A DNA stretch of 64,000 nt from Mediterranea massiliensis (lineage in GTDB: Bacteria; Bacteroidota; Bacteroidia; Bacteroidales; Bacteroidaceae), in assembly GCF_900128475.1 (NCBI RefSeq), contig NZ_LT635838.1, forward strand, positions 684,536 through 748,535, written 5' to 3'. Shown here piece after piece: positions 26,254 to 64,000 of this stretch; position 1 is the first letter of the stretch, and every line of letters begins with the position of its first letter. A model generated the notes under the pieces. That model did no database searches. It was not told the DNA's origin and saw only the letters and a program-made list of their open reading frames with translations. Both the position numbers and the translations under genes were made by a program.

Positions 26254-26343
26254 ATACTTATCTTTAAAAATTAATAAGGTCAACAAACAATCCTTCAGCC
26301 AGAACCGAATAGCACCTTTCAGCTGAAAAAGCATTCATTTTTG

Positions 26344-26351
26344 CAAATATA
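26344..26351 (-). promoter_or_regulatory. -7 element of the susC-susD promoter
   Basis: On the minus strand TATATTTG matches TAnnTTTG, about 90 bases before the susC start, which leaves a leader typical for such operons. It excludes the longer reading frame starting at 26334. No good -33 element is visible. Confidence 0.5.
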
Positions 26352-26463
26352 TATAATTATTTTTACACTACTACTATTTTCACAAGTTTTTTTCAAACTT
26401 TATATTCAAAAGAGGCCGTTTATAGCCATTTCCATTTATTCTAATTTTGTTTAATACAATAGT

Positions 26464-27817: not shown

Positions 27818-28068
27818 TTCATTCTTGACAGTATTTCAATGATCTCTTTAATAATATTGAACTGGCTAACACCGATTCTATTATTTAATTAAATTTATCG
27901 GTAAAAATTTACCGAAGTATTGTTAATAACCACCAATATCATCTTGAAAATATCAAATTTTAACCAATAAGATAAAATTCCTCCTGTATCGAAAAAGGAA
28001 ACATACAAAAACAAATATCAAGACAGAAGTCTGACAGGGAAAGGGCACATCAGAAAAAAAGCAACACC
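27818..28068. other. AT-rich gap between the IS4 element and the SUI1 gene
   Basis: About 250 AT-rich bases without a coding frame of note. A small palindrome, TCGGTAAAAATTTACCGA, lies at 27898-27915. Otherwise nothing is recognised until the promoter at 28069. Confidence 0.5.
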
Positions 28069-39841: not shown

Positions 39842-39855
39842 AACGATTCCGTATA

Positions 39856-40893: not shown

Positions 40894-40936
40894 AGCTTCA
40901 GTATGCTTTTAATATTCTTGATTGGCTGGTTGAAAC

Positions 40937-41884
40937 TTACCATTCTACCGTGTAATTCTTTTCGATCCAATTGGTTACTTCTACCACCAGTGTAACATTT
41001 GTCGCATTGCGGGAAATGTTGATGCGATAGTTGTAGCGTTTTCCTTTCTCCCATGCAGTGACGGAGCTTGTTTTTAGCTTGATAGAGGCGGACTTGGATG
41101 TAGTGTCGCCTATAGTGTATTGGTAAGAAAAATCGAGGGTCGCATTATCGCTGAGCGACTTGTGTGGGGGCAACAATAGGTCGCCTCCAAAAAGAAAATA
41201 GTCTTGAGTATCATTGGCCGGGATAGAGAGACTTTCTGTTTCAAAAGAGGGAGCATTTACATCGCTAATACCCCCAAAATCCCATTCATTTCCGTTGAGG
41301 CTTCCTATATGACTAATTCCGTATAACTGGGCATTGCTGATGTTTACGGCGTCACCTTCGGATGTAACTATGATGTTCACCCGCGCCAGTTCGTGATTAA
41401 ACGTCAACGCTACAGGTGCAGGATTACTGCCGTTTCCAGTCGCCGTAGCCGTCATCAGGTCCACAGCCTCCGATCCCGTCTTGGAGCAGTCGAAGTTTGT
41501 GACGGTGATGGTACCGTAAGAACTTACATCTGCCTTTACGTCTGTCGGATATACTGCATAAAAGTTATAAGTTTTTCCAGCCGACCAGTAACGCGTACCG
41601 CCAGTATAGTTCCATGCGCCATTGCTTTCGGTCACTGTCTCACCATCAAATACATTAGTAGCGTTTATCGATGATGCGTTGTCACCGTATCCTCCCCATA
41701 CGCTGAAACTGCTTCCATCGGGCAGCGACGTACCGGTGACCGCCGCGCGCGTCTCCGCCGCAGGCATGAAGCTGATGGCGGGGGCGTCTGTCATAGGCTC
41801 ATCGCTGAGGGTGCTGGTGCACGAGGCTACCGTCAAGAGCAGGAGGAGGGACAAAGCCCCAAACGTTACTGGAATGCGTTTCAT
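40937..41884 (-). CDS. Fimbrillin-family protein (Mfa_like_1)
   Basis: This 315-residue lipoprotein precursor (ALSLLLLLTVASCTS) has the Bacteroides fimbrillin pattern. AISFMPAAETRAAV follows the Cys, then SVWGGYGD, TRYWSAGKTYNFYAVYP in the first domain, and LTFNHELARVNIIV at the start of the second. The protein ends KRYNYRINISRN followed by VTNWIEKNYTVEW. These proteins are shaft or accessory subunits of fimbriae, cut near an Arg before polymerisation. It is paralogous to the next gene upstream, with low identity by eye. Confidence 0.85.
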   Translation of the reverse strand: MKRIPVTFGALSLLLLLTVASCTSTLSDEPMTDAPAISFMPAAETRAAVTGTSLPDGSSFSVWGGYGDNASSINATNVFDGETVTESNGAWNYTGGTRYWSAGKTYNFYAVYPTDVKADVSSYGTITVTNFDCSKTGSEAVDLMTATATGNGSNPAPVALTFNHELARVNIIVTSEGDAVNISNAQLYGISHIGSLNGNEWDFGGISDVNAPSFETESLSIPANDTQDYFLFGGDLLLPPHKSLSDNATLDFSYQYTIGDTTSKSASIKLKTSSVTAWEKGKRYNYRINISRNATNVTLVVEVTNWIEKNYTVEW

Positions 41885-41992
41885 ATCGTTGTCTTGGTTT
41901 TGGTTTCAATTTTTAGCTTTTGTCCGAAAGAACAAAGCTGTGTAGTGCCCGTGCGGGCGGCCAAGCACGCACGGGCTGTGAGAAAGAGGTTA

Positions 41993-43036
41993 TTAAGGAA
42001 CAACAGTAGTTACAGGATTGTCAATATCACTTGCATCCTTCCAATCTTCTACTGTAGCAGTAAACTCAATTTCTTTATTTGTAAGTGTATCATCAATCAT
42101 ATCCGCTGTAATTTTTGTGGAATATTTGTAACGATATCCTGCTGTCCATTTGTTTGATTCAGGATCGTTTATACCATCGCCAGTTTGTTTTGTGAACGAC
42201 AGATTGGCTGTAAAATTCTGGCTCTTTGGCTGGCTATCAGGATTGTTGCCATCTTTCAAAGTTGCCGTAAACGTAACGGTAATATAATCAGAAGTAGTCG
42301 GAAGATCCTGAGGAATAACAAGCTTGGACTGCATCTTTGTTCTAGCAGGAGTCAAATCACCATCAGCGATATCAACACCATCTTTAAAATCTTCATATAT
42401 ATAACCACCTTTGGTTGCTCCATCAGTTTTCCAAGTAATTGCTCCAGCAGTATTGATTGAACCTTCTGTTTTGTTGATAGCTCCGTTTATATTAACATTA
42501 GATATCTTCAACTCATAAGCATCAGCGGCATCAGTGGTAAACTCAAAAGCCACTTGCGCCAGCATGTGTTTGAAGTTAAGCTCTACTGCTCCCTGAGCAG
42601 TAGCATCAGAAACAGGACCTACTTGAGCAGGAACACAAGCTATTAGATCATACGTATCTACTGGCGTATAAGCCGGGAAGGTCAACGTTTGGTTTACAGC
42701 ATCAAAACTGACATTATCAATCTTGCCGCCAGTACCATTTGCATAAGCACCAAAACGATAGTAGTTACCATCCTGCCAATAATACTTAGAGTCTCCTGTT
42801 TCATTCTTATAAGCCGTGCCTGTCCAAGAGTTTCCATCAGTACCAAAATTTCCGAACACATAGAATTCTGATGAAGCCAAACTTCCCGAAGGCACTTCAG
42901 TTACCGCTTTTGTGTTGTTATTCACAAATGTGTTAAACTGAATAGAGCGGCCTTCAGCCACCTCCAACACTTCATTCTGTGTACAGCTTGCGAGTGCTGC
43001 TACAGCTACTCCAAGCAAAAGCAAACTTTTTCTCAT
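41993..43036 (-). CDS. Fimbrillin-family protein, probable major shaft subunit
   Basis: The 347-residue precursor has a lipoprotein signal (LLLLGVAVAALASCTQ), then VLEVAEGRSIQFNTFVNN, FYVFGNFG, SKYYWQDGNYYRFGAYA, LNFKHMLAQVAFEF and a final TATVEDWKD. This is the most typical fimbrillin of the cluster. It is preceded by a 191-base gap, while other genes in the cluster are closer, so it may have its own promoter and higher expression, as expected of a main shaft subunit. That last point is inference. Confidence 0.88.
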   Translation of the reverse strand: MRKSLLLLGVAVAALASCTQNEVLEVAEGRSIQFNTFVNNNTKAVTEVPSGSLASSEFYVFGNFGTDGNSWTGTAYKNETGDSKYYWQDGNYYRFGAYANGTGGKIDNVSFDAVNQTLTFPAYTPVDTYDLIACVPAQVGPVSDATAQGAVELNFKHMLAQVAFEFTTDAADAYELKISNVNINGAINKTEGSINTAGAITWKTDGATKGGYIYEDFKDGVDIADGDLTPARTKMQSKLVIPQDLPTTSDYITVTFTATLKDGNNPDSQPKSQNFTANLSFTKQTGDGINDPESNKWTAGYRYKYSTKITADMIDDTLTNKEIEFTATVEDWKDASDIDNPVTTVVP

Positions 43037-46462: not shown

Positions 46463-47496
46463 TATATTAACGTGAGTTCGAAATAAAAATAAATATATTT
46501 CAGTGATAATTAGAAACATAGCGATAAAAGTATTAAATTTATAGTGCTGAATTATAAGATTTAAACGATTACCACTATGTTTCCAGAGTCTAAAGTTACA
46601 GAGATTTATTGTATGGCTGATGATTTTTGCAAGGAATTTACATTGCAACAGGAAAAATATATGATTGAGGATAAGAAAACCAGGCATCGTAACAAACCTA
46701 ACCGTATGAATGATGCTGAGATTATGGTTATTCTAATCCTGTTTCACTCCGGTGGTTTCCGCTGTTTCAAGCATTACTACAAGGAATATGTCTGTAAACA
46801 TCTGAAACACCTTTTTCCGCGTCAGGTGTCCTACAACCGTTTTGTTGAACTGGAGAAGGAAATACTGCTTCCCCTGACCATTTTCATCAAGAAAGTCCTG
46901 CTGGGAACCTGTACCGGCATCAGTTTTGTCGACTCCACTCCTTTACGTGTCTGCCGTAACCAAAGAATCCTTATTCATAAAACATTTGAAGGACTTGCCG
47001 AGCGTGGAAAATGTTCTATGGAATGGTTCTTCGGATTCAAACTACATCTGATAATCAATGACAAAGGGGAAATTCTCAATTTTATGTTTACTCCTGGAAA
47101 CGTGGATGACCAGCAGGGTAAGTTTCTGGAAAACATCAAAGGAAAACTATGTGCCGACAAGGGATATATTGGCCAGGCTCTGTTCGAGAACCTTTTCCTT
47201 AATGGCATTCAGCCTGTCACTAAAGTTAAAAACAATATGAAGAACTCGCTGATGAGCATTGCCGACAAGATCCTGCTCAGAAAAAGGGCCTTGATTGAAA
47301 CGGTTAATGACGAGCTGAAGAACATTGCACAGATAGAACACTCTAGACATCGTTCGTTCAATAACTTTATAGCCAACTCTTTGTCGGCTATAGCAGCATA
47401 TTGCTTTTTTGAAAAGAAGCCCGCCATTGATGTAAACTTTGTCAATGACGGACAACTGTCCATTTTCTAATTTTATATCGAACTCACGTTATATTA
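46463..47496. mobile_element. IS982-family insertion sequence with 7-bp target duplication
   Basis: The element spans 46470-47489 (1020 bases). Its ends are inverted repeats: ACGTGAGTTCGAAATAAAA on the left and the complement ACGTGAGTTCGATATAAAA on the right, 18 of 19 matching. The target sequence TATATTA is duplicated directly outside both ends (46463-46469 and 47490-47496). Clean ends and an intact transposase show a recent insertion. Confidence 0.92.
46577..47470 (+). CDS. IS982-family transposase
   Basis: The 297-residue protein has the family pattern: RNKPNRMNDAEIMVILILFH near the N terminus, the catalytic Asp in GISFVDSTPLRVCRN, a second in FTPGNVDDQQ with LCADKGYIGQAL, and Glu in RALIETVNDELKN. 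IAQIEHSRHRSFNNF closes the typical C-terminal part. The frame is complete and all acidic residues are present, so it is probably active. Confidence 0.93.
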   Translation: MFPESKVTEIYCMADDFCKEFTLQQEKYMIEDKKTRHRNKPNRMNDAEIMVILILFHSGGFRCFKHYYKEYVCKHLKHLFPRQVSYNRFVELEKEILLPLTIFIKKVLLGTCTGISFVDSTPLRVCRNQRILIHKTFEGLAERGKCSMEWFFGFKLHLIINDKGEILNFMFTPGNVDDQQGKFLENIKGKLCADKGYIGQALFENLFLNGIQPVTKVKNNMKNSLMSIADKILLRKRALIETVNDELKNIAQIEHSRHRSFNNFIANSLSAIAAYCFFEKKPAIDVNFVNDGQLSIF

Positions 47497-47826: not shown

Positions 47827-47836
47827 CTGAGGGCGT

Positions 47837-47910
47837 GGGCGTTGACGGATTCGAACCGCCGACCCTCTGCTTGTAAGGCAGATGCTCTGAACCAGCTGAG
47901 CTAAACGCCC
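47837..47910 (-). tRNA. tRNA-Val (anticodon TAC), copy 3 in transcript order
   Basis: The minus strand folds as a 74-base tRNA: acceptor GGGCGTT/AACGCCC, D arm TAGCTCAGCTGG, anticodon loop CTTACAA (anticodon TAC) and T arm with GGTTCGAATCC. The CCA end is not encoded. It is identical to the two upstream copies over the mature sequence. Confidence 0.97.
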
Positions 47911-47943
47911 TCTCAAACAAAAAATGAAGATATATGAAAAAGT

Positions 47944-48017
47944 GGGCGTTGACGGATTCGAACCGCCGACCCTCTGCTTGTAAGGCAGATGCTCTGAACC
48001 AGCTGAGCTAAACGCCC
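47944..48017 (-). tRNA. tRNA-Val (anticodon TAC), copy 2
   Basis: Same 74-base sequence and fold as its neighbours, with anticodon TAC. It is separated from them by 33 and 35 bases. Confidence 0.97.
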
Positions 48018-48052
48018 GTTTTGAACAACGAAAGTGAAGAATCGATTTGTGT

Positions 48053-48126
48053 GGGCGTTGACGGATTCGAACCGCCGACCCTCTGCTTGTAAGGCAGATG
48101 CTCTGAACCAGCTGAGCTAAACGCCC
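48053..48126 (-). tRNA. tRNA-Val (anticodon TAC), copy 1 (promoter-proximal)
   Basis: Same 74-base sequence and fold, anticodon TAC. It lies about 25 bases after the promoter at 48151-48181 and is first in the three-gene transcript. Confidence 0.97.
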
Positions 48127-51902: not shown

Positions 51903-53387
51903 TCATGATAATAAAATAATTTTAGCTTTCGTATTATCCATCTTAGGCATCGTTGCCCCAACAGGAGCCCCTATATAAGTAGGATCACATATCACATAAC
52001 GCTTACCATTTATAGTCACATAATCTCCTGTCACAACATCATCAAAATGTACAGCAGTTGCAAGATGACCAGGATAATAGATTAATACAACTTCAAGTTC
52101 CAACAGATCTCTCACTAAACGTGAAAACAAAATTGAACGGTCTTCGCAATCACAATATGGATAATAAAGGGTTTCGTCTGCAAAAAAAGCTCGATCGTAC
52201 CCCCATACTTTATCATCATACTCATAAACGAAAGCAGTCTGAACAAAGTTCAGCAATCTATTTACAGCTTCCAATTGTCCCTTACCTTGAATCGCCTTCT
52301 GCAATGATGGATATAAAGTAGACTTTGCCTGATTACTCAAAGGAGTATTGGCATACATAGCCCAACGCGTTCCAAAATCATTATTAATAATTGAAGTTGG
52401 ATAAGAATTTAAAAAAGCCAATAAATTCTCATTAGTTACGACGTTAGCCTTCATATCGCCATACTTCTCCGATTGCAACTTCCTAACAGCAGAGCTCTTA
52501 ACGCCGAATTTTTGTTCTGTCTGAATCTGCAAAGAAAGAGGTTTTTCTTCTGGGAAAGCCGCATCACAAATATAAAGCTGTTCCAAAGTACAATTAAAAG
52601 GATAGAACATTTCTCCGTCAATCGTCCAATATGGTTTATCATAAATCATATGTTTACTAGCATACAATAAAAATAATTGTTCACCGGCACTGGCAAGCCT
52701 CATTTTGTACCCGGACTGACAATACAAAAAAGCAGTCAATAAAACAGCTTCATTATGCCTACCCTTAAAACAAGATTGAGACAATTCATTCAACATTAAC
52801 AAATAAGCCCAATCACACAATTCATAGCGTGAACGAATTTCCAAACAATCATACAAAGTATTATCATATACACCCGAAGCCAAATAATTCCATACTTTAG
52901 CGATATCACGTTCTTCACAGCGTTGCAAAACAAATTGTCCCTTATTATCCAACCGGACCTTTAACTTTGTATTAAAAAACGTAAAATCAAACCATGTATC
53001 CATCGGTTCCGGTTTTTCCTCTATCGGAGTAATTGGAGTGGGTTGGGGATCTGGTTCAACAACAGGTATCACCTCATCAAACGGCAATGGACGGTCTTCT
53101 AAATTTTCATCCTTATCCTCTTCAGGATAAACGACAGGAGGGACCAATTCATCTTCTTCAGGAATAGGTACACCCTTTAACGCATTAAACTCACGCCAGC
53201 TTTTTTCCAGCAATGCAGCATATTCTTCATTTATGCGTTTTCGAAAATTTTCGAAATCCTGTTCATGAGCACTCTTGAACGCAGAATATTCACTATTCAA
53301 TTTGCTCTTAAACTCCTCAAAGCTTCCTTGTGCCCTTCCTTCAATGAAAGATAGGACAAGTAACAATATAAAAATAATATTTTTCAT
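51903..53387 (-). CDS. Secreted transglutaminase-like protein of unknown function
   Basis: The 494-residue protein starts with a signal peptide (IIFILLLVLSFIEGRA), then a charged, probably coiled region (about 20-70) and a Pro/Glu/Asp-rich linker (about 73-128). The C-terminal half has a possible transglutaminase-like triad: Cys in YPYCDCEDRSILFSRLVRD, His in YYPGHLATAVHFDD and Asp in YVICDPTYIG. The pattern C-x-D/E-D-R-S...G-H...D-P-T-Y is that of bacterial transglutaminase-like peptidases. It is the last gene of a four-gene cluster and lies 6 bases after the PEGA-barrel gene. Codon use is AT rich. The function is unknown. Confidence 0.75.
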   Translation of the reverse strand: MKNIIFILLLVLSFIEGRAQGSFEEFKSKLNSEYSAFKSAHEQDFENFRKRINEEYAALLEKSWREFNALKGVPIPEEDELVPPVVYPEEDKDENLEDRPLPFDEVIPVVEPDPQPTPITPIEEKPEPMDTWFDFTFFNTKLKVRLDNKGQFVLQRCEERDIAKVWNYLASGVYDNTLYDCLEIRSRYELCDWAYLLMLNELSQSCFKGRHNEAVLLTAFLYCQSGYKMRLASAGEQLFLLYASKHMIYDKPYWTIDGEMFYPFNCTLEQLYICDAAFPEEKPLSLQIQTEQKFGVKSSAVRKLQSEKYGDMKANVVTNENLLAFLNSYPTSIINNDFGTRWAMYANTPLSNQAKSTLYPSLQKAIQGKGQLEAVNRLLNFVQTAFVYEYDDKVWGYDRAFFADETLYYPYCDCEDRSILFSRLVRDLLELEVVLIYYPGHLATAVHFDDVVTGDYVTINGKRYVICDPTYIGAPVGATMPKMDNTKAKIILLS

Positions 53388-53393
53388 CTTCGC

Positions 53394-55112
53394 TTAATAG
53401 GAACTACCACTAAACATCCAAGAAATAGTTAGTGACAATTTGTTTTGAATAGTTTTAAACTCTCCCTGATCAGAATAAAACTTGTGATCACTTAATCCCT
53501 TTGAATACTGTGCATTCACCTGAATTTTACCTACTCGAAAACCAACCCCAATTTCTGCCGATGCGTTAAAACGATTGGGCCAGCCATCCAAGCCATAATA
53601 TTCAGTTGAAGGTTCAGAGTTTTCATATTCAGTAGAGCTGAAACTAGCATAAAGTCCATAATCAAGGCCAATACCGCCATGAATAGCCAAAGCCACCTTA
53701 TTGGCAAAAGGTAAGCGATAGTAAGCATGGATTGGCATATACAAACAATGTTCTTGGAAATGATCCATATATCCTTGTTCTTTCATTTCTTCGTTCCAAG
53801 ACATATAATATTCATAAAACAAACCAGAGTAGAGTCCCAATCCCCAACTGAAACAAGGTTGAAAGTGCAATCCCACCTGAAGGCCATGCAACCTCTTATT
53901 TTCTCTTCCCCACACATCTTCTTTCAATCTGGCTCCCTCACCGCTTGTCACCCATTGCTTAGTTACATATCCCATAGAAAATCCCACAGGGGAAGCATCA
54001 TATTCTCTCTGCCAAGGCCATACGAACGAGTTTCTTGCAGGAATCTTAAATTCTTGCTCAACATCCATATTTCTCGAAACGCGGATTGTTCGTTTCTTGC
54101 CGTTTCCTCCATACGTCATATTCATGATATATTTTTTCCCTACAGGTTTGGTCAATTGATATGATGATTGCCTGGGTCTTTCCAATTCTCCATCAATATA
54201 CAAATCAGCATCAACCTTACTGCCATTATAGGTTGCGAAAACCTCAAATGTTTTTTTCTCAATAGGTTCCAATACAATACGATCCTCCACCAGTTCATTT
54301 ACAGTAAAATCTCTTGCATCCGTTTCATCTGCATTTAACCGAGCTTCCACGCGATACGAAGCATATTTCAAAGTAAGTTTCATTGGAGTTTTACCGACAT
54401 ATTCATCATTCAAATACAAATCAGCACCACTCGGATCACTTACAAATTCAATTTCTTTATCTTTACGAAAATCATACTTAAACATCGTACTATAATCAGA
54501 CACCTCTATGAGTGTATCTGCAATCATTTGACCATCAATACTAATAACGAGTTTATGAGTACCTAAAGGAACCCCACTGATCGTTGCAGGCGTAGTAGCA
54601 CTTTTTTTCAAATCAACTAAAGACACAGTTGCATTGTCTGGCTGAGTAATGATAGTTATAGGTAAAGTTTTATTATTTTTCATCACTACATCATAAATAC
54701 GCTTGGGCTCCAAGCGCAAATCAGACAAGCGATTACTTTTCCCATATCCTTCCAGCGAAGCTTCCATGGAAGCAGCATTTGATGGAGTTACAAAAACCCA
54801 AATTTCACTTTTCTGCTCATCCAACCGATTTACCCGAGAACGAATTGGAGCATTATAGCCAAAATCAAAGTTTACCATTTGTGCATCAGCCTTCGGCATA
54901 TTTTCAAAAGAAATTCTCACCAAAGCACAATCCTTATCTCCATTAACATCTTTAGGCCAGTCATCAATAAAATGAGCGCTCAAATTATCCATTCCACCAA
55001 AAGACCTTGATTCATTAAAAGAATGCAACACCAGTTGAGTCGTATTAGCCTCCTGACCAACTATGACATTGGCCATAAGCACAACTATGAAAAACAAAAT
55101 ATTTCTTTTCAT
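53394..55112 (-). CDS. PEGA-domain protein with C-terminal outer membrane barrel
   Basis: This 572-residue protein has a signal peptide (MKRNILFFIVVLMANVIVG). The N-terminal part (to about 140) is of unknown fold. Several PEGA-like beta modules follow, for example TIITQPDNATVSLVD with GVPLGTHKLVISIDG, and FVSDPSGADLYLNDEYVGKTP. From about residue 385 the sequence becomes an outer membrane barrel with aromatic strand ends, closing with LSLTISWMFSG. It could hold a surface or periplasmic binding module to the outer membrane. It is preceded 15 bases upstream by the LPP20-like gene and is AT rich. An ATG three codons earlier is also possible. Confidence 0.75.
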   Translation of the reverse strand: MKRNILFFIVVLMANVIVGQEANTTQLVLHSFNESRSFGGMDNLSAHFIDDWPKDVNGDKDCALVRISFENMPKADAQMVNFDFGYNAPIRSRVNRLDEQKSEIWVFVTPSNAASMEASLEGYGKSNRLSDLRLEPKRIYDVVMKNNKTLPITIITQPDNATVSLVDLKKSATTPATISGVPLGTHKLVISIDGQMIADTLIEVSDYSTMFKYDFRKDKEIEFVSDPSGADLYLNDEYVGKTPMKLTLKYASYRVEARLNADETDARDFTVNELVEDRIVLEPIEKKTFEVFATYNGSKVDADLYIDGELERPRQSSYQLTKPVGKKYIMNMTYGGNGKKRTIRVSRNMDVEQEFKIPARNSFVWPWQREYDASPVGFSMGYVTKQWVTSGEGARLKEDVWGRENKRLHGLQVGLHFQPCFSWGLGLYSGLFYEYYMSWNEEMKEQGYMDHFQEHCLYMPIHAYYRLPFANKVALAIHGGIGLDYGLYASFSSTEYENSEPSTEYYGLDGWPNRFNASAEIGVGFRVGKIQVNAQYSKGLSDHKFYSDQGEFKTIQNKLSLTISWMFSGSSY

Positions 55113-55127
55113 GCCATACATCTTTTT

Positions 55128-57041
55128 TTAAAACTTAAATTTACTCATAAATTCTTCAATGCTCATCATATCTGATTTGTCAGGTTGCCACATCCTGACA
55201 TGAATAATGGGCAGTTCCTTGGATGCATCCAATACAAGTGTCAAATATCCCTGATCTGAATATACAGGAGAATTATAAATTTGACGAATTTGTATTACAA
55301 ACGCTGTTGCGGGTGGTAAACTAGGAGCATTAATTACCTGCGTCACATTATCTTCAAAAGTCAGATGAACATATTCTCGTTCATTAAAATGCGTACGCAG
55401 CTTTTCTATAAACTGCTTCTTGTTCAACCGCGTATAACGAATATCATTTTTTCCAAAATCAACTGGCAAACCTTCAACCTGTGCCTTAGGTGCCGTTTTC
55501 AGCATAGTTCCGGTTATGATGATAGCATCATCTGAAAATATCTTGTCAAGATAATCTATACGCTGCAATAAATAAGCAGTCTGATAATCCTCCATAAACT
55601 GCAAAATAGTATACCGAGACACTTCAGGCCACGTAGAAGCCGCATTGAAGATATCATCTTCGGCCTTTTTTGTCAGCGCCAGTGCCAGCGATTGAATTTT
55701 TTTAGTTTTCTCATCAAATCGAAACGTAAGTTTCTCCATAAACGACCGCCCATTACTAAAGCGAATTTTCACTTTACAATCTTTCCCCAGGACCTGCCCG
55801 TTTGCCCGTACAAAATGATATTGCTGATTGGATCCAACTAATGTAATTCGCCCCGTATACTTCAAAAGTTGTTCAAAAAGTTTATAACCTTCCGACGTAA
55901 AATAAGCAAATGCACATTCTGGATTACATTGTTTAATAGCAGATTCCACAGCCTTCATAGCCGCTTGGAAAGAAGCATCATCCTCTACGCCTTCAACCTC
56001 AATCCGTTTTTTTACCTGAATAGTCTCCGTTGCTACAGCTGCAACAGAGGGTTCCAAAGCCATTGAAGAGGTAAATCCCTCCTTCTCATACTTCTTAGCC
56101 ATCTTCACAGTACCCTTCCGGGCATTTACTTTCACAGGAATCTCAACAAAAGCATTTTCTATTACAGGAGCACTCATTTCAGAAAAAATAGTTCTTAACT
56201 CTGTATCGAGATTCTCGCCTTGCTTACGAAAACTGTATTCATAGCGAACCTGTACTTTCTCATTTACAGGCAACGACAATAATTCCAACTCCGCCACTCC
56301 ATCTCTTACAGTCAAAGGCCCCACGAAAGATTGCCCATCAAAATAATCCAACTGAAGGCTTGAAACAGCTTTACCATCATAAATAAAAGTTCCTTGTAAA
56401 TAATAGCGATTGTCCCGTTCTATACAATCTTCTATTTTTACCTTCAAATGTGATAAAACCGATTTGATTTTTATTGGTAAGAAAACAAGACAATTTACAC
56501 TTTCACCATTAAAATCGGCATATACTGCATCGCGATTTGATCTGGCCAGCATCAACGCCCAATAATAATTACGAAGAGCATCATCTATTTGCAAATCTCG
56601 TTCTGCCAATTTACCAGTTTCCACAAAATCCAAGATTTTGTTCTTACGTCTTTCGAACATTTTGTCAACTTCATTTTTTTCTACCCAACGGAACACCCTG
56701 GCACCAGGTTCAGGATGCAGCACCATCATATGCACATTTTGCAAAGAAGCAAATGAAAACGACTTAACACTCCCCTCCTGGGTATAACTGGAATAACTCA
56801 CGCCATCTGCTGTCTGTCCGCTATTATCTACTTCCTGAGTTTTGGATGATACACTTACTGAAATCTGGTTAATAATCTGCGATAAAGCATCCCGACTAGC
56901 ATCATCAATTGTAGCTCCCTGCCCTTCAGCATACCAATAATTAGAACTAGATTTAATTTGTTGAATATCTACTTGTGCATGTCCGTAAACATGCACAAGT
57001 AGATAAACACAGATTAGCATAACAATCCTGCCTGCATTCAT
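55128..57041 (-). CDS. Large secreted protein with N-terminal LPP20-like domain
   Basis: The 637-residue product begins with a signal peptide (IVMLICVYLLVHVYGHAQ). An N-terminal region with YWYAEGQGATIDDASRDALS and QISVSVSS follows, which is the LPP20 lipoprotein-like pattern (periplasmic proteins). The middle part is unknown, with repeated aromatic-rich stretches. The last 230 residues hold two segments resembling the NTF2-like or nuclear-transport fold, with DDAIIITGTML and RTHFNEREYVHLTFEDN. The start at 57041 is chosen because the upstream part of the frame overlaps a small gene. It lies 1 base after that gene and 15 bases before the PEGA gene. Confidence 0.72.
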   Translation of the reverse strand: MNAGRIVMLICVYLLVHVYGHAQVDIQQIKSSSNYWYAEGQGATIDDASRDALSQIINQISVSVSSKTQEVDNSGQTADGVSYSSYTQEGSVKSFSFASLQNVHMMVLHPEPGARVFRWVEKNEVDKMFERRKNKILDFVETGKLAERDLQIDDALRNYYWALMLARSNRDAVYADFNGESVNCLVFLPIKIKSVLSHLKVKIEDCIERDNRYYLQGTFIYDGKAVSSLQLDYFDGQSFVGPLTVRDGVAELELLSLPVNEKVQVRYEYSFRKQGENLDTELRTIFSEMSAPVIENAFVEIPVKVNARKGTVKMAKKYEKEGFTSSMALEPSVAAVATETIQVKKRIEVEGVEDDASFQAAMKAVESAIKQCNPECAFAYFTSEGYKLFEQLLKYTGRITLVGSNQQYHFVRANGQVLGKDCKVKIRFSNGRSFMEKLTFRFDEKTKKIQSLALALTKKAEDDIFNAASTWPEVSRYTILQFMEDYQTAYLLQRIDYLDKIFSDDAIIITGTMLKTAPKAQVEGLPVDFGKNDIRYTRLNKKQFIEKLRTHFNEREYVHLTFEDNVTQVINAPSLPPATAFVIQIRQIYNSPVYSDQGYLTLVLDASKELPIIHVRMWQPDKSDMMSIEEFMSKFKF

Positions 57042-57042
57042 A

Positions 57043-57174
57043 TCATTTACCCTTAGATTGTTTAGCAAGTTCTTCTTGAATTTTTTTCTCAAACTGCTGG
57101 AATTGATATTCCATCTTAATCCGCTCTTCATCAGGAATTTGCTGTCTTATTTTATCCACAATTTTATTAGCCAT
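57043..57174 (-). CDS. Small 43-residue protein, first gene of the envelope cluster
   Basis: This short frame starts MANKIVDKIRQQIPDEERIK and ends in KQSKGK. It is highly charged and likely helical, with no signal peptide or membrane segment. It ends 1 base before the start of the LPP20-like gene. Tight spacing, a sensible start, and a frame that explains the space between the repeat region and the next gene support it as real. The function is unknown. Confidence 0.55.
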   Translation of the reverse strand: MANKIVDKIRQQIPDEERIKMEYQFQQFEKKIQEELAKQSKGK

Positions 57175-57188
57175 TTATAATCCGCAAA

Positions 57189-57255
57189 ACGAAATGTTTC
57201 GACTTTTGGGAACGAAACGTTCTTTTTCCCAAAACGAAACGTTCTTTTTTTCGCA
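57189..57255. repeat. Three tandem ACGAAACGTTC repeats upstream of the envelope cluster
   Basis: Units at 57189-57211 (23 bases, diverged), 57212-57233 and 57234-57255 (22 bases each) share ACGAAACGTTCTTTTT. Each holds a GAACGAAACGTTC-like palindrome. They lie directly before the start of the 43-residue gene, so they may be regulator sites or a mobile repeat. Confidence 0.7.
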
Positions 57256-57309
57256 CCCCTACCCTGCCCTTTTCCGCTTAATTTCTCACTTCTAATTATT
57301 ACTAAGAAA

Positions 57310-57341
57310 TTTGGTAATCTCGCCAAAAATCGCTACATTTG
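57310..57341 (+). promoter_or_regulatory. Promoter pointing towards the phage-tail gene terminus
   Basis: TTTG at 57310-57313, a 20-base spacer and TACATTTG at 57334-57341 match the Bacteroidetes consensus. No credible plus-strand gene follows, so it may drive a short RNA. Confidence 0.65.
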
Positions 57342-57347
57342 TATAGT

Positions 57348-57493
57348 ATAAATTGGTGTGTTGTGCACTCTCTCACACATACTAAAGCACTATCAAATTT
57401 CATTTTCTTAAAACATTTTCGACCGGCTTACGCCGGTATTTATAATAACACGAACGGTGTTCGGAAACCATCCGAACACCGTTCTTTCGTTTT
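57348..57493 (+). ncRNA. Candidate small RNA with promoter and terminator hairpin
   Basis: A transcript from the promoter at 57310-57341 would start near 57348. It would pass a small hairpin (ACCGGC-TTAC-GCCGGT, 57422-57437) and end at the 14-bp hairpin 57452-57484, which is followed by TTTCGTTTT. The total would be about 145 bases. It is antisense to nothing known. No family was recognised. Confidence 0.35.
57452..57484. repeat. Perfect 14-bp inverted repeat just after the tail protein gene
   Basis: Arms GAACGGTGTTCGGA (57452-57465) and TCCGAACACCGTTC (57471-57484) flank a 5-base loop. It lies 42 bases beyond the stop codon of the large tail-like gene. DGR target genes carry a hairpin or cruciform at this place, needed for retargeting; a plain terminator for a plus-strand RNA is the alternative. 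Confidence 0.85.
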
Positions 57494-57526
57494 AGTCGCT
57501 TCGCTCCACGCTTTGGCGCTTTGCGC

Positions 57527-60500
57527 TTACAACACTTCGCGAATCGCTTTATACGCTTCCACGCTTTCCGCCCGAACGAGTTTGCCGCGGAAGGCCAGAC
57601 GCGAGCCGACACCCGCATTCGAATGCGAAGCATCGTTATTCGCATTCGCATACGACACACCGCCATTCGCATACGCATCGCTGTACCCGCGAGAGACCAC
57701 ACGGCTGGCTGCGGTACTTATCCAGTATTTATCGCAATAATATGTACTGGACGAGCCGTTAGCTGTTCCTACCGGTACGATATCCATGTATTTACCATGG
57801 GCAACACCTGTTATCCACTGGTCACTGGTCGTTTTACCCTTCACCCAACGCACCGTGCCGTCCGGCATCCAAATACGCCATTTACCTTGGTTGCCACTAT
57901 CGTTGGGTAAATCAACACCGTCCATCATCTCGTACTTATGGCCGTAGATGTCCTCATAGCCCAGACAACTGATATTGTTTACCTGAGTCACGGTCGGAGA
58001 ACCATACTCGTCCTGCCCACGATACCAAGCGTACTGGTGGATAGAACCGTCCACGATGGAATTCGTGATCTTGTCGTTTATTTTATACGCTTCGTCATAA
58101 CCGATCGTATCCTGCATACCATAACCGGCTGTACCGCCCGTGATACGATTGTTCGTATGCTGACCGCCTCCGCACTGTTCCTGGCTGTCACGACGGCCAT
58201 ATCTTGCGTAAAACAAGTTCGCTATACGGGAGTGCATCAACGCGTCTATCTGTTGCATACCGCGCTGAACCGAGTAATAATGAAAGTCGATCCAGTTCAT
58301 GCTGGCCGTCGTGGAATTACCCGTTATGCATGAACGCAACTTGCTACCTACCACGCTACTGCCTACTACCGCACAAAGATGTTCCTCGTTGGCCACCCAA
58401 TCGGGCTCCATATCCTCGATCTTGTCGGAGTTGGAAAGAACCACCTTGTCAAACTCGGCCGTGTTCAGGATCGAGAAGTGCAAGGCCGTGGCGTCCTCCG
58501 GAACATCCGATATCAAGTACATGCCGGCCTCGAACTTCAGACCGATCGTAGGGACCACGATGGTTTTGACCACGTTTCCGGAGCCGTCAACAAATAGACT
58601 GCCGACCAAACCCGTACCGGGAACACTCGGAAAACGTACACGCTTATAGCCTTGTACATCCACCTTGCAGACTGAATAGGTCTTGTCCGTGCTATAAGAA
58701 TCCTTCAACGTGGGTTTGCCACTCAAAAGTTTGCGCTCTGTAAGGAAACCGCCCTGCGTGTCTTTGATGTCGTCCAACGTCAGCACCGTCACATCCGGAA
58801 CAGGAGGCATATCGTCAGGGCCGTTGGAACTGTAACAGCTGTAATATTTCTCGTTCAGGTAGTCATTGACACCTTTCGACCAAAAGAACGGTTCGTACAT
58901 CATCCAGTCGCCCTCGCTGCTGTCAAGTTTGGCTGCGCTGCCATCGTAGTATTTATTACTGCTGGTATCATCCAACGGACAATAGGTCATCTCGCCGTCC
59001 GGATTGTTCACGTCAACCGTCTGGCCCGCCATCTCCACTTTACGGCTCGTGGGCTTTTTCGTCACCTTGGCAAGCACACGGTGGCGCTTCTTGAGGATCG
59101 CCGCCACGTGGGCATTCATGACGTAAGTATTGCCATACTTATAACCGGTCTCGTTGTCCGGGTTGGAAATGTTGGCATCGTCCGGAGCGCTTTCGTCCGA
59201 CTCGATGATGCTGTAGGCCGGTTGTACGATCTCCAGTTCCGGATACCGCTCACGATACCGGTCGGCCTGTTCGTCATCCATGTACTTTGTCAGGCAGAGC
59301 CTGCCACGCAATCCGGAATGACGGTTGTCTATCGCTCCGGTGGAGGTATAAGTACCATAATCGTAGTATTTCCCGAGCAGCCTGCCGTCATCCTCCATAT
59401 CGATGTCAAGGACAAAACGCTCCAGTTTACCGCTACCGTTCAACTTGGCCTGATGAAGACGTTCCAGCATGGCAAACCCGTCAATGCCCGGACAACCCAT
59501 GAACCGGTAGCCTCGCACGTTACCGATGCCATCCAGTACCAATCCGCTCTCTGCCAACCTGGGAAGATATTCCAGAAACAGTTCCTCTATCGTTTCCGGC
59601 AAGCATAACTGCACAACAGGCGCACCGGTGGCAAGTTTCACGCGGGTAAGCCCCGTGCCTCTCACGTCCAGCTTCTTCAACCGTCCCTGCCAGCTCAAGT
59701 CCAAGGTCGTCACGTTGCCGTTATCGCCATTCCGTGCCAGCAGGTTGTTGCGCATATTAAGCTCTTCCAGAAGAAGCATGCCGTTCGTAGAGGCCATGAA
59801 TGAACCGTTACGATAACCGCTGGCTTTCTCCACGCTCATGTCAAGTTTAACCAATGAGGTAAGCAAGCCGAAATTGAATCCGATGGCGAACGCGTCCTCA
59901 TGCCACACCAGCTCCTTGATTTTGGCCGCGCCGATAATCTTCAGCGGGTCGTTCTCACCGAAGGCACGGGCCAGCTGCAGGGAGTGGAGCACGTCCGCAT
60001 CCACCACGCCGCTGTCGGCCTGAACGCCGTTGCTAGTGGAAAGCTGCACGCGGTACGGGATGGTCAGCCGGTACTGCATCAGCTTCAGTTTGTATGCCTT
60101 GTCCAGCGATGCCGTACTCTGGTAGAACTGGGCGCCCAGCGTAGAGACATAACCGTACTCCACCTGCTTCAGGTCATACCTGCGCTGGATGAAATAGTTA
60201 CGGTGAGCTTTCAACGAACCCTTCAGACCGTAGATCTGCGGATACGTCTGTTTGGCACCGTCAGCCCCCACCGGCATCTCGTTCAGGAACGGATACACAT
60301 ACTTGAAGATGCCTGATTTGTTGTACAGCCGGCTGCACCACTTCTTCATCTGCTCGGTGTCGAAATGGTCAACGGCCTTCTGGATGCTGAAGGCACTCAT
60401 GAAGCTGGTACCGCCGTTCACACCCCTGGTCATCACTTCCTCCAGCAGATTGCCCATATTGCCCAGTATCAGGTTCCACAGCCAGCTGTTGTGTCCCTGC

Positions 60501-63500
60501 ATCACATAGGCCCCGTCCCGCTTCGTCTGCCGGTTGTCGTCATACTTCCCGGTCAGGAACGACTTGTTGTCCGAACCCAGCTGGCAGTCACCGTCGTAAT
60601 AGGTTATCCACCACATCACGCCGTCCCATGTCCGCACCAGCATATTTTTCGCCAGCTGGTCCACACCCAGGTTGAACTGTACATACAGGTAGTAGGCGGC
60701 CAGGTTGGGAAGGTTGAAATACTTCCCGGCTTCCGCCTTGAAGGTCGGGCTCACCCATTTGGCCGTCGGGAACTTGTTGCCGTCATCCTCATAGTCCACC
60801 CCGTCAAAGGTGTGCGTCTCCTTGTTATAGGCCAGATTCTTGCCGGCAGGCGTTTCCCTCACGCATTTATAGAGGAAACTCATCATGCGGTCAAGCGCCT
60901 TGTACATCTTGTCGTACTTGTCACCGGTGCCCAGGTGTTCCTTGATGTTCGGTTCTTCTTCGGCATCGCCTCCGCCATCGTTCCAGAACACGTCTTTCGG
61001 ATGGTTGAACTCGAAACCGCCGTCAAAGTTGAAATCCATGAAGTCCGTATGGTCGGGCTCCGTGGACGGCAGCCAGCGGAACAGGCACAGGTCGTTCGAG
61101 TTGTTCAACGTCTCGATGCAGATGGGCAGGTATTCCTTCGGCCGGTCGCCGTTCGCCTGCAGGTAGTTCAGCGTATCACCGGTCCCCCACTGTTCTTCGC
61201 CGATGGTCTTGTCCTGGCCGAATATCGGGTAGCTGTCGCTCTTCTCGTTGTTCATGTTGTACTGGCCGTAGTAGGTCAGATCCTCATCCACACTCTTTGC
61301 CACAAACAGGTCACAGGGCAAGCCGTCAATGGCCGAGCGTATGTCTTCCTTGCACGTATCCACATGGTCGGCGGCATACTGCTGGGCAGGGGTCAGGATA
61401 CCCATTTCCTTCATGCCGTCATGGATGAACTTCGCGCCACCGGTGTTGGTGGTCATGGAGGAGTCCGAAAAGTCACACTTCGCACAGGCGAGTTTTGCCC
61501 CCACCGAGTTGTCCCGCAGTCGGAACAGGTTCTTCTTACCCTCCGTAGCTGTCGGGTTGCTCTGCTGCCCGTTACCGTCTATCTCGCCGTAGCTCATCCG
61601 TGCCGTGTAACCGCTGGCTGTCTTCTGGAAGTAGAAGCGCAGGTTCTTGCGGGCATAGTTCACTGAACTGGTACCCTGGATACGCAGATAAATGTCACGG
61701 GCTATCCAGTCCAGCGCCCGGTTCTCACCGTTGTAGAATCTAACTTCCCGGCACAGCTTGTTGGCCTTCTTGTTGTTCAGCTGGGCCAGCGCGTCCATCA
61801 CGTTCAGCGTGTCGCTCTCGCTTGGCACCTCACTGCCCACGCTGCCCGTGCCTATCAGTACCAGGATCGAGTTCCGCCGCTTCTTCATCAGTCCCATCAG
61901 CTTCTCCATGCTCACCGTGTCCCCCTCGTTCAGCACGCGGTTGTCCTCATCCAGCGAGCGCACGCCCGGTTCCCCGTCGGCATCCTCCAGATGATTGCGG
62001 TCCACGATGTAGTTGTTAAGCACCTCGTCCGAGGTCAGCGCCTTGTTATAGATGCGCACGCTCTTCACGTTCAGGTCAGCCCCCTCCGATTTAAACTCCA
62101 GCTGGCTCCGGATGTCGAAGCTCACCTTGTCCAGCCACTTCGAGGCGGCCGACTCCTCCCCGTTCACATAGAAGCCGATCAGCGTCCGCTGCTCGTTGGT
62201 CTCCACGTCCGGGTAGAACACGTAAGTGATACGGATATTCTTACCGGGTTCAAACTTCGTACCCACCGAGTCCTCATAGCGCAGGACCTGACCGGCATCC
62301 ATCGCCTCCGTCACCACGCCGGTAAGGAACTTCGCCTCCTCCGGGGTCACCACCAGCCCGTAACGGTTGCCGTTTTGCAGGGTGCCCAGACAGGTGATCA
62401 GCTCCGCGTCGGTGTCAGTCACGTTGGCCGTGCTGTATTCTATCTCCAACGTCATGCCCACGTCGCGGATGGCAAAACCCTCGGGCTTGTCCGCCTCGTT
62501 GAACGGGCGATAACCGCCGTCTGCCGTCAGTGTCATGCCCGCACCGCCGGCCAGCAGCAGGCGGTCCTTGTGCCAGCCGCTTCCTGCGCCGTATTCGTTC
62601 ACGCTCCACAGCACATCACGGAATTCCATCCGTTTGTCCCCGCTCACCCAGCTTTCCGGGTTGTTTTCCGTGTTGCTTCGCCCGAAGGCATCGAACGTGC
62701 ACACGGCATCCGGTGCCAGCGTGGCTTCAATGTCGGGGTGCGATGTGGTGTTCACCTGCACCTCAAGCACGGCATCACCGCACGACACACGGTAATCCAG
62801 CGGTTCCACGTTCACGTTCGTACGCCCGTAGCTGCCGGTCTCACCGCGCTGCAGCAGGTCTTCCTTCACCACACTGCCCCGGCTGGTCACTTTCACACGG
62901 GCCGTGTACGCATCCCTGTCATAGCCGGCATACGTGAAGTTCCACGCCGTGAACTGCTCGGCCTCCAGTACGGGGTGCTTCCAGTCACGCTGGAACCCTG
63001 CCGCCCGGTGGTTGAACATCATGCCGGCATAGGCCGTCACACCTTCCTCGGCTTTCAGCAGGGTCAGGTAGTGTATCTCGCTCACCACGCCGGAGTTCTC
63101 GTGCAGCGCATAGGCTTCCACCACGTTCATGCCCTCCCGCATTTCACTCAGCGCAACGGTGACGTTCTTCTGCTGGACACCGGAACCGGCTGACAGGCCA
63201 AGCGTATAGGGCTGCCCGCCGTTGATACGGTAGTAGATGTTCTTCTCGCCACTCGTTCCCTTAGCTGTAAATGGGATGTTCACGTCGTTCCGGTATCCCC
63301 CGTCAGCCAGTCCGTTCCCAACCGAATAAGTGGTACTTAGTTCCATAGCCACCATCGTCACCCTGGCGGTAGCGGTTTTCATCAGCGTACCGCCATCATA
63401 ACCGGCCTGCGCCTCCACCTGCACGGTGTAGGTCGTGGCATCCTTCAGGTAAGGCGACGCGTCAAAAGTATAGCTCTGACCGGCCGTAACGCCGACAAAC

Positions 63501-64000
63501 TCCGCATCCTGGAATTCCGAAAGGACCGTGGAGCCACGTTTTACGACCACCTTGGCCTTCAGGTCGCTGTAGCCACTCACCTCGCCGCCACCGGCCGTGC
63601 CCACGCCAACGGCATATCTCACCACGAAACCGGTACCCAACGACAAATACTGGGAAGCGGGCAAGGAGGAACCCGAAGCATCGGTCAGGTCTATATTCAC
63701 CACCACCTTGTCATCGTCGCTATACTTGGAAAAGCGCACCTCCCTGTCGCTTTCCCCGCCTTCGCCATCCTTCTGCGTGACTGTCATCACGTACTGAGTG
63801 CCGTCCTCGCTGTCCGTCACGTCGATATTCGTCACGGTACCCACCAGCGAGGCGAACACCGCGCCGCTCGTGGGGGCTTTCGTCTCACCGGCGGCCAGCT
63901 CCTCCGTAGGGGTGGCCTTGTCATCAATACTTTTGATATAGTTCTCCACCAACCGGCCGCTCACCGGAAGATTACCCGTGGATTCGTCACCGGACCAATC
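57527..64000 (-). CDS. Very large phage-tail-like protein, putative DGR target (5' partial)
   Basis: At least 2157 residues are visible; the frame is open to the window end (DWSGDESTGNLPVSGRL and on). Domains by position: Ig-like and beta-rich modules (64.0-62.7 kb); a LamG/concanavalin-like region (about 62.6-62.0 kb). A CotH-kinase-like region runs from about 61.7 to 60.55 kb, with QGTSSVNYARKNLRF and later TWDGVMWWITYYDGDCQLG. A leucine-rich-repeat-like part lies at about 59.9-59.45 kb (LTTLDLSWQGRLKKLDVRG-like). The C-terminal C-type-lectin-like domain lies at about 58.2-57.55 kb, with GKWRIWMPDGTVRWV and ending GVGSRLAFRGKLV. This last pattern is typical of proteins diversified by reverse-transcriptase systems. 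It probably is a receptor-binding tail protein of a Bacteroides prophage. Confidence 0.8.
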   Translation of the reverse strand, partial: DWSGDESTGNLPVSGRLVENYIKSIDDKATPTEELAAGETKAPTSGAVFASLVGTVTNIDVTDSEDGTQYVMTVTQKDGEGGESDREVRFSKYSDDDKVVVNIDLTDASGSSLPASQYLSLGTGFVVRYAVGVGTAGGGEVSGYSDLKAKVVVKRGSTVLSEFQDAEFVGVTAGQSYTFDASPYLKDATTYTVQVEAQAGYDGGTLMKTATARVTMVAMELSTTYSVGNGLADGGYRNDVNIPFTAKGTSGEKNIYYRINGGQPYTLGLSAGSGVQQKNVTVALSEMREGMNVVEAYALHENSGVVSEIHYLTLLKAEEGVTAYAGMMFNHRAAGFQRDWKHPVLEAEQFTAWNFTYAGYDRDAYTARVKVTSRGSVVKEDLLQRGETGSYGRTNVNVEPLDYRVSCGDAVLEVQVNTTSHPDIEATLAPDAVCTFDAFGRSNTENNPESWVSGDKRMEFRDVLWSVNEYGAGSGWHKDRLLLAGGAGMTLTADGGYRPFNEADKPEGFAIRDVGMTLEIEYSTANVTDTDAELITCLGTLQNGNRYGLVVTPEEAKFLTGVVTEAMDAGQVLRYEDSVGTKFEPGKNIRITYVFYPDVETNEQRTLIGFYVNGEESAASKWLDKVSFDIRSQLEFKSEGADLNVKSVRIYNKALTSDEVLNNYIVDRNHLEDADGEPGVRSLDEDNRVLNEGDTVSMEKLMGLMKKRRNSILVLIGTGSVGSEVPSESDTLNVMDALAQLNNKKANKLCREVRFYNGENRALDWIARDIYLRIQGTSSVNYARKNLRFYFQKTASGYTARMSYGEIDGNGQQSNPTATEGKKNLFRLRDNSVGAKLACAKCDFSDSSMTTNTGGAKFIHDGMKEMGILTPAQQYAADHVDTCKEDIRSAIDGLPCDLFVAKSVDEDLTYYGQYNMNNEKSDSYPIFGQDKTIGEEQWGTGDTLNYLQANGDRPKEYLPICIETLNNSNDLCLFRWLPSTEPDHTDFMDFNFDGGFEFNHPKDVFWNDGGGDAEEEPNIKEHLGTGDKYDKMYKALDRMMSFLYKCVRETPAGKNLAYNKETHTFDGVDYEDDGNKFPTAKWVSPTFKAEAGKYFNLPNLAAYYLYVQFNLGVDQLAKNMLVRTWDGVMWWITYYDGDCQLGSDNKSFLTGKYDDNRQTKRDGAYVMQGHNSWLWNLILGNMGNLLEEVMTRGVNGGTSFMSAFSIQKAVDHFDTEQMKKWCSRLYNKSGIFKYVYPFLNEMPVGADGAKQTYPQIYGLKGSLKAHRNYFIQRRYDLKQVEYGYVSTLGAQFYQSTASLDKAYKLKLMQYRLTIPYRVQLSTSNGVQADSGVVDADVLHSLQLARAFGENDPLKIIGAAKIKELVWHEDAFAIGFNFGLLTSLVKLDMSVEKASGYRNGSFMASTNGMLLLEELNMRNNLLARNGDNGNVTTLDLSWQGRLKKLDVRGTGLTRVKLATGAPVVQLCLPETIEELFLEYLPRLAESGLVLDGIGNVRGYRFMGCPGIDGFAMLERLHQAKLNGSGKLERFVLDIDMEDDGRLLGKYYDYGTYTSTGAIDNRHSGLRGRLCLTKYMDDEQADRYRERYPELEIVQPAYSIIESDESAPDDANISNPDNETGYKYGNTYVMNAHVAAILKKRHRVLAKVTKKPTSRKVEMAGQTVDVNNPDGEMTYCPLDDTSSNKYYDGSAAKLDSSEGDWMMYEPFFWSKGVNDYLNEKYYSCYSSNGPDDMPPVPDVTVLTLDDIKDTQGGFLTERKLLSGKPTLKDSYSTDKTYSVCKVDVQGYKRVRFPSVPGTGLVGSLFVDGSGNVVKTIVVPTIGLKFEAGMYLISDVPEDATALHFSILNTAEFDKVVLSNSDKIEDMEPDWVANEEHLCAVVGSSVVGSKLRSCITGNSTTASMNWIDFHYYSVQRGMQQIDALMHSRIANLFYARYGRRDSQEQCGGGQHTNNRITGGTAGYGMQDTIGYDEAYKINDKITNSIVDGSIHQYAWYRGQDEYGSPTVTQVNNISCLGYEDIYGHKYEMMDGVDLPNDSGNQGKWRIWMPDGTVRWVKGKTTSDQWITGVAHGKYMDIVPVGTANGSSSTYYCDKYWISTAASRVVSRGYSDAYANGGVSYANANNDASHSNAGVGSRLAFRGKLVRAESVEAYKAIREVL
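57617..57685 (-). other. Putative DGR variable region
   Basis: The 23 codons before GVGSRLAFRG are dominated by NAY codons (Tyr, Asp, Asn, His: for example TAC, GAT, TAT, AAT, AAC, CAT) alternating with GCG, TCG and GGN. First-base variation of AAY codons is what adenine mutagenesis produces. The reverse transcriptase and template repeat are not in the window. Confidence 0.6.

Follow-up and report, generated by a model that had tools for sequence, protein, structure and literature searches.

Gene order and domain content of the cluster

The gene cluster described here lies in a 64,000-nucleotide stretch of the genome of Mediterranea massiliensis (contig NZ_LT635838.1, positions 684,536 to 748,535), which we call the window; position numbers refer to it, and numbers beyond 64000 are window-extended coordinates on the same contig. 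The cluster is an operon in the order small LPP20-like lipoprotein, large exported LPP20/NTF2 protein, PEGA and outer-membrane barrel protein, and exported transglutaminase-fold enzyme. Its four open reading frames (ORFs) are all on the minus strand, with intergenic gaps of 1, 6 and 6 bases. The lipoprotein gene is represented in the window by its C-terminal tail (57043..57176; ORF 57043-57174). The gene of the large LPP20-domain protein occupies 55128..57041 and encodes 637 amino acids counted from the ATG at 57041, the mechanical ORF beginning at 57131. It is followed by the gene of an exported 575-residue protein, recognized by Pfam, with a PEGA domain and a C-terminal outer-membrane beta-barrel (53394..55121), and by the gene of the exported 494-residue transglutaminase-fold protein (51903..53387), assigned from its ORF, Pfam matches, alignment and structural model. 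The guanine plus cytosine (GC) content of 51903-57176 is 37.7%, compared with 60.6% for the downstream carB gene and 51.6% for the whole prophage that borders the tail. A hydrophobic N-terminal export signal was recognized by eye in all three large proteins. A preliminary description of this DNA, made from the sequence alone, had proposed a tightly packed, low-GC set on one strand with three large exported products, and these features proved to be real.

Both domains of the middle gene product scored over their Pfam cut-offs (PEGA, E 2.5e-12; OMP_b-brl_2, E 1.8e-7), which confirms its earlier assignment, and PEGA was found in 20 of 22 relatives at E≤0.001. The other two large proteins of the window scored below the cut-offs (LPP20, 18.7 bits against 25.9; Transglut_core, 14 bits against 23), and an NCBIfam scan of the three window proteins gave no match at E≤0.1. 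Relatives and structural models nevertheless support both folds, as the preliminary description had called them. LPP20 was matched by 33 of 40 large proteins at E≤0.1 (best 4.4e-8), and the large-protein profile matched 4kzs, a protein of the LPP20 family, at E 7.7e-6. The large protein of the window begins with an ordinary signal peptide, which ends in AQ and shows no lipobox by eye, followed by the N-terminal LPP20 domain, other folded parts and a C-terminal NTF2-like domain (best Z-score 14.2; predicted local distance difference test score, pLDDT, of the model 84.6). Judged from secondary structure, the part ahead of the C-terminal domain may be a second NTF2-like region. In the small LPP20-like lipoproteins, the lipobox residue Cys 21 is present in at least 90% of 27 sequences; 6 of the 27 matched LPP20 at E≤0.1, and their profile matched the LPP20 domain of the large protein at 93.6%. 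The N-terminal lipoprotein fragment of this genome gave no LPP20 match at E≤0.1.

The large and small cassette proteins therefore share an LPP20 domain with the LPP20 family (PF02169; 4kzs, FlgP and FlgT). According to passages of PMC12222027, the FlgP fold is common to Helicobacter pylori Lpp20 and FlgT, FlgP makes up the concentric rings in the basal disk of the flagellum, FlgT forms outer-membrane-associated rings, and ring formation is tied to an insert. Unlike FlgP and FlgT, the cassette was not seen in a flagellar setting, and the large protein departs from the family in that its signal peptide is an ordinary one with no lipobox and in that it has an additional NTF2-like domain.

The matches of the large protein's C-terminal region included, among many others, H. 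pylori Csd6 (Z 13.4) and Bdellovibrio Bd1075 (Z 12.4), and the Pfam family Cds6_C was matched by 11 of 40 large proteins. Csd6 and Bd1075 have roles in wall modification and cell shape, and it is conceivable that the cassette is a cell-wall or cell-shape system in which the NTF2-like domains position a wall-modifying complex as in these two proteins. We consider this quite improbable, since many unrelated NTF2-like folds reach the same score and Pfam scans found no peptidoglycan enzyme domain in the four genes.

A Mu-like prophage splits the lipoprotein gene

In close relatives of the cluster, the gene ahead of the large LPP20 gene encodes a lipoprotein and has about 200 codons. The intact 208-residue lipoprotein of locus L112 was used as a tblastn query against this genome, and only two matches were better than E 0.1 (the third had E 0.125). 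Query residues 1-164 aligned to 98750-98244 on the minus strand (E 1e-42), and residues 164-202 to 57174-57058, also on the minus strand (22/39 identical, E 9e-11). The first match belongs to an N-terminal lipoprotein fragment comprising the first 169 codons (98244-98750, minus strand; G000:C24:782779-783285), so that the two pieces of the gene lie on the same contig and strand, 41 kb apart. One junction has the sequence ...GAAATG|TACGGGG, and the opposite one ...GGATTAT|AAATGGC. From this reading, AAATG is present at both ends of the insert as a 5-bp target-site duplication (57172..57176 and 98244-98248), with 41,067 bp between the copies. These data show that the lipoprotein gene was interrupted after codon 169 by a Mu-like prophage, with duplication of 5 bp, and that a tail of 43 codons was left behind.

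The tail had previously been taken for a charged 43-residue protein and a member of the cluster in its own right. It has an ATG and ends one base ahead of the next start, as would a separate small regulatory protein; this explanation is hardly credible, because the ORF aligns to the C-terminus of the intact lipoprotein and the N-terminal part, 41 kb off, ends in the same ATG codon. We therefore rejected the ORF as an independent gene.

The left part of the insert occupies 57177..64000, and the insert runs past the window to 98243. It is a prophage of the Mu type, which reached the lipoprotein gene by transposition. Its genes matched MuA-like phrog_310 (1.3e-53), MuB-like phrog_296 (1.3e-38) and Portal_Mu (5.4e-74); MuA/MuB transposition genes, a Mu portal and a 5-bp target duplication, by which Mu-like transposable phages are recognized, are thus all present. 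The 5-bp duplication fits transposition rather than site-specific integration. A site-specific prophage with a long att repeat was also considered and rejected, as the longest word common to the junction regions has 10 bases and lies off the junction. Near the prophage end there are two copies of the 11-base word AACGAAACGTT (57211..57243, plus strand), and a third copy lies inverted near the other end (98130); the word resembles a transposase site by position only. The closest MuA record was an unannotated faecal phage fragment (MT837734.1, 77.8%), and a MuA protein search in which 100 genomes were examined gave matches at E≤1e-30 in 4 other genomes. A second MuA-like transposase gene, 44% identical, is located on another contig of the same genome (G000:C21:164097-165995, locus L244) and perhaps belongs to a second Mu-like prophage.

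In addition, the prophage carries a diversity-generating retroelement aimed at the phage-like gene closest to the cluster (57527..63964, minus strand; the ORF passes the window end to 64048 and encodes 2173 amino acids in all). The variable repeat lies inside this gene (57595..57704, minus strand), the template repeat at 83491-83600, and a reverse transcriptase gene (83814-85115; phrog_1423, 2.2e-117) 213 bp downstream of the template. The two repeats differ by 14 mismatches in 110 positions, 10 of which fall at the 27 adenines of the template. The template repeat was located by script; a repeat search in each of the two retroelement regions alone found none. The target gene matches PHROG families without known function, and the next phage gene upstream of it gave a partial match to a tail fibre family.

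With its transposable nature, MuA/MuB genes, retroelement, Bacteroidales host and a length in the range of 41-43 kb, the prophage resembles hankyphage (Bacteroides phage p00), as the latter is described in passages of PMC12135933 and PMC11960936. The two differ in MuA, the single protein compared, with just 28.8% identity across 31% of its length.

The gene adjoining the cluster had been noted as phage-like, and it is indeed a phage gene, at the end of the 41-kb prophage inserted in the lipoprotein gene. This bears on the suggestion that the cassette serves in anti-phage defence, the preliminary description having mentioned defence as one possible role. The sporadic distribution and atypical low GC content of the cassette would agree with a defence system placed beside a phage gene, but that gene is part of the inserted prophage, and in a PADLOC scan of the four proteins none was matched at E≤1. 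We regard a defence role as very improbable.

A loose sequence pattern, which we take to be that of Bacteroidales promoters, was looked for in three stretches. The only match was found upstream of the detached N-terminal fragment, and there was none in front of the tail. Since the promoter-pattern match lies on the far side of the insertion, the prophage has probably cut the rest of the operon off from its native promoter, and the cassette would then be silent or badly expressed in this strain. It might also be proposed that the prophage acts as a genetic switch, turning the cassette off and on by transposing into and out of the lipoprotein gene, perhaps favoured as the cassette is exposed to phage. 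The insertion hits the opening gene of the operon, and the remaining frames are undamaged; part of a commentary on hankyphages describes their insertions as random and potentially gene-disrupting or polar (PMC11960936). Against this stands the fact that a single insertion in one genome was observed, with no second case seen, though none was systematically sought. Moreover, Mu-type phages as a rule do not excise precisely, and a switch seems far-fetched to us.

Recurrence of the gene set in Bacteroidales

The large LPP20 family was used to scan GTDB genomes, and the results rest on the best 80 of 512 confirmed loci, including 17 that are bounded by contig ends. We defined the full order as an LPP20 gene with a PEGA gene immediately downstream of it and then an enzyme gene within the next three genes, all on the same strand. 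The full order was present in 20 of the best 80 loci, and in 19 of these the small LPP20-like gene was directly upstream, the exception being the record from Barnesiella. The other full-order records include ones from Bacteroides muris, Prevotella, Candidatus Amulumruptor, Muribaculaceae, Parabacteroides acidifaciens and Alistipes. In one full-order locus (L189) the enzyme ORF has just 201 residues, and locus L169, in order but with a split LPP20 ORF, was not counted. Under looser distance limits, PEGA was found within four genes in 61 of the 80 loci, the enzyme within four genes in 31 and the small LPP20-like gene within three genes in 46, with profiles built partly from the same loci. The neighbourhoods examined showed no conspicuously conserved fifth gene. 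A chance estimate for adjacency, in which 1.2 enzyme genes were assumed for every 3000 genes, was not used as evidence. The intact four-gene operon thus recurs across Bacteroidales, in records of several families, and the idea of an envelope set is supported by the conserved order. When pairwise distances were compared among the three proteins over 20 loci, the window being one of them, they correlated with r values of 0.78-0.90, which none of 2000 permutations reached.

The association was also counted from the enzyme side. A small LPP20-like gene lay on the same strand within five genes in 19 of 29 usable loci, and at least one of the three partners was present in 21 of the 29, the PEGA gene in only 3 and the large LPP20 gene in 7. 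Four of the 33 transglutaminase-like loci (L019, L033, L035 and L049), for which a simple gene caller gave no usable enzyme ORF, were left out. Occurrence was surveyed in 295 genomes sampled evenly from the order: the large LPP20 protein was matched in 33 of them, in some cases in its C-terminal part only, and the enzyme in 74 at E≤0.001, with some weak matches. According to hand counts, the enzyme was found in 26 of the 33 genomes with a large-LPP20 match and in 48 of the 262 others (Fisher P 6e-12). The enzyme is therefore not exclusive to the set. The preliminary description had named two outcomes that would speak against a new dedicated system, separate occurrence of the genes and a match to a named system; the former was observed for the enzyme, and Pfam, NCBIfam and PADLOC scans gave no model naming the gene set.

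This genome has a second locus with an enzyme of the same family (L016:8440-14163), which comprises a small LPP20-like gene, a DUF5683-like gene, a CarboxypepD_reg/BACON protein and the transglutaminase-like enzyme; DUF5683 was matched in the L018 relative of the L016 gene and not in L016 itself. The enzymes of the two loci are 33% identical, and in both the small LPP20-like gene is three genes upstream of the enzyme, but in the second locus the PEGA barrel and large LPP20 proteins are replaced by the CarboxypepD_reg/BACON protein and by a gene that belongs to another cluster. Transposase-like ORFs at 46577-47470 and L016:4389-5294, identical in their first 60 residues, accompany the two transglutaminase-like loci at distances of 3 to 5 kb and are probably copies of a multi-copy insertion sequence. 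A search of the genome for DUF1573 gave 4 matches, which were not used.

The large LPP20 gene was also observed in other surroundings. In a Prevotellaceae locus (L200:4003-8985) it comes after the gene of a 1660-residue PARCEL-repeat surface protein, and very large genes precede it in L206 and L213 too; the PARCEL-repeat protein and the products of the other very large upstream genes are possible substrates. The C-terminal part of the large LPP20 protein has a short relative in L136, L138 and L143, loci with a gene family of 1000 residues; the L136 copy matches Tubulin_2 (E 8.3e-46), and this setting seems to be a different system.

Carriage of the cassette by plasmids was rejected, as the large LPP20 protein had no match in 72,556 plasmid records. 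Among 50,697 phage records the enzyme matched one, at 33.5%, an unannotated 4-kb faecal contig that may be bacterial, and exact peptide patterns, which detect close relatives only, had no match in IMG/VR. Elsewhere in the window, three tandem tRNA-Val(tac) genes lie downstream of carB (47835-48126), tRNA genes being sites where mobile elements often land, and lower-GC stretches also occur at 26001-28000 and 39001-43000 (37-50% per kb, with the rest of the window mostly at 45-60%).

The exported enzyme and a possible role of the cassette

The enzyme consists of a signal peptide, an N-terminal helix with an 11-residue aromatic repeat, a proline-rich linker, a middle domain and a C-terminal domain with a Cys-His-Asp triad (C414, H441 and D468). 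In its structural model (mean pLDDT 90.5), the best match of the C-terminal 160 residues was LapG, with Z 10.2 and a root-mean-square deviation of 3.5 over 136 residues at 15% identity, followed by PNGase, transglutaminase 2 and a putative protease of Parabacteroides at Z 9.0-9.1. The triad, which had already been proposed for the window protein, was found in order in the sequence alignment of 29 members: Cys414 and His441 are invariant, and Asp468 is present in 27, with Glu in the other two. All 29 also have a D-C-E-D motif around the catalytic cysteine. LapG has a calcium-binding stretch by its cysteine to which this motif may be similar. According to passages of the respective papers, LapG binds calcium near its active site (eLife, PMC4359373) and is a periplasmic cysteine protease with a Cys-His-Asp triad that is inactive as C135A (PMC3032545).

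The enzyme is thus like LapG (PDB 4u65 and 4fgo), the periplasmic calcium-dependent cysteine protease of the Lap system, in being exported and in having a transglutaminase-like fold and a Cys-His-Asp triad. It is unlike LapG in its neighbours, the LPP20 and PEGA proteins, and in an extra N-terminal part of 330 residues. The aromatic repeat of this part is common to the enzyme family and in the window protein covers residues 22-64, in the mature N-terminus (53196-53324, minus strand). Across the family, aromatic residues form 146 pairs at lag 11, but only 2 at lag 10 and 1 at lag 12; 2000 shuffles gave a mean of 31 and a maximum of 51 pairs at lag 11, the family members being related. The window enzyme alone has 6 pairs at lag 11 and 0 at both lags 10 and 12. 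A helix with such a repeat would suit oligomerisation or lying on the membrane.

An alternative to a peptidase is a true crosslinking transglutaminase, which would link PEGA or LPP20 proteins with one another or attach them to the envelope. Transglut_core is the sole recurrent Pfam match in the enzyme family (15 of 29 members at E≤0.1, best 0.0022), and alignments with transglutaminase 2, transglutaminase 3 and factor XIII reach Z values of about 8-9 and span some 147 residues. On the other hand, the hydrolases LapG and PNGase align as well as or slightly better than the transglutaminases, and the Transglut_core score of the window enzyme is under the Pfam cut-off. We consider a crosslinker unlikely and prefer a LapG-like peptidase, because LapG is the best structural match and because the same enzyme family occurs beside a BACON-repeat surface protein in the second locus; this beta-sandwich protein would be a natural substrate there. 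The preference is a weak one, the margin in fold similarity being about 1 Z. Where the preliminary description had left it open whether the cassette builds, crosslinks or processes something at the outer membrane, crosslinking is not favoured, the nearest fold being that of the protease LapG, but by only about 1 to 1.5 Z over eukaryotic transglutaminases.

Taking these data together, we propose that the cluster is a four-gene envelope operon, split by a prophage and probably silenced in this strain, which encodes an outer-membrane complex with a LapG-type Cys-His-Asp processing peptidase. We assign this reading as a whole a probability of about 40%. The two LPP20-domain proteins and the PEGA barrel would assemble into a complex at the periplasmic face of the outer membrane. 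The enzyme would trim or release a partner, for which the PEGA protein, or a surface protein that the PEGA protein anchors, is the likeliest candidate. The intact operon would be expressed from the promoter in front of the lipoprotein gene, from which the prophage would part it here. A more specific version, which we put forward as doubtful, is that the cassette represents a widespread and so far undescribed outer-membrane proteolysis module of Bacteroidales. An LPP20 platform would lie under the outer membrane, and the LapG-like protease, held by its aromatic-repeat helix, would cut a PEGA-type or other beta-sandwich surface protein and thereby release or activate it. Such a module might parallel the action of the Lap system on adhesins, with unrelated partners.

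Several results weigh against the proposed peptidase operon. PNGase, transglutaminase 2 and factor XIII are within about 1-1.5 Z of LapG, so that the fold does not tell protease from transferase. With Foldseek, the enzyme had no match at E≤0.001 (best E 3.1e-3). Peptidase_C93 was not among the 9 Pfam families matched by the 29 members at E≤0.1, and the enzyme profile, compared with the sequences of solved structures at E≤10, found no LapG chain, its best match being unrelated (E 0.43). No LapA- or LapD-like partner turned up in the neighbourhoods, no search aimed at LapA or LapD having been made. The correlation of protein distances may be explained in part by shared species history, and all four genes, that of the enzyme included, are also found separately, PEGA proteins being numerous and repeated in some loci. 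Finally, the frames downstream of the insertion are intact, and a loss of function by polarity is therefore not visible in the sequence.

In the open-access literature, judged by titles and the starts of abstracts, no description of a set of LPP20, PEGA and transglutaminase-like proteins in Bacteroidales was found, in agreement with the preliminary description, which knew of no such system. The cassette is made up of known protein families in an undescribed, conserved arrangement. The split lipoprotein gene is a natural insertion mutant, made by a retroelement-bearing transposable phage, and provides a concrete case of the gene disruption proposed for hankyphages; it also illustrates how, at the end of a prophage, the remnant of a disrupted gene can pass for a small new one. 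The enzyme family is common in the order Bacteroidales, and the four-gene set is recurrent. If the protease reading is true, gut Bacteroidales would have a surface-processing system of their own.

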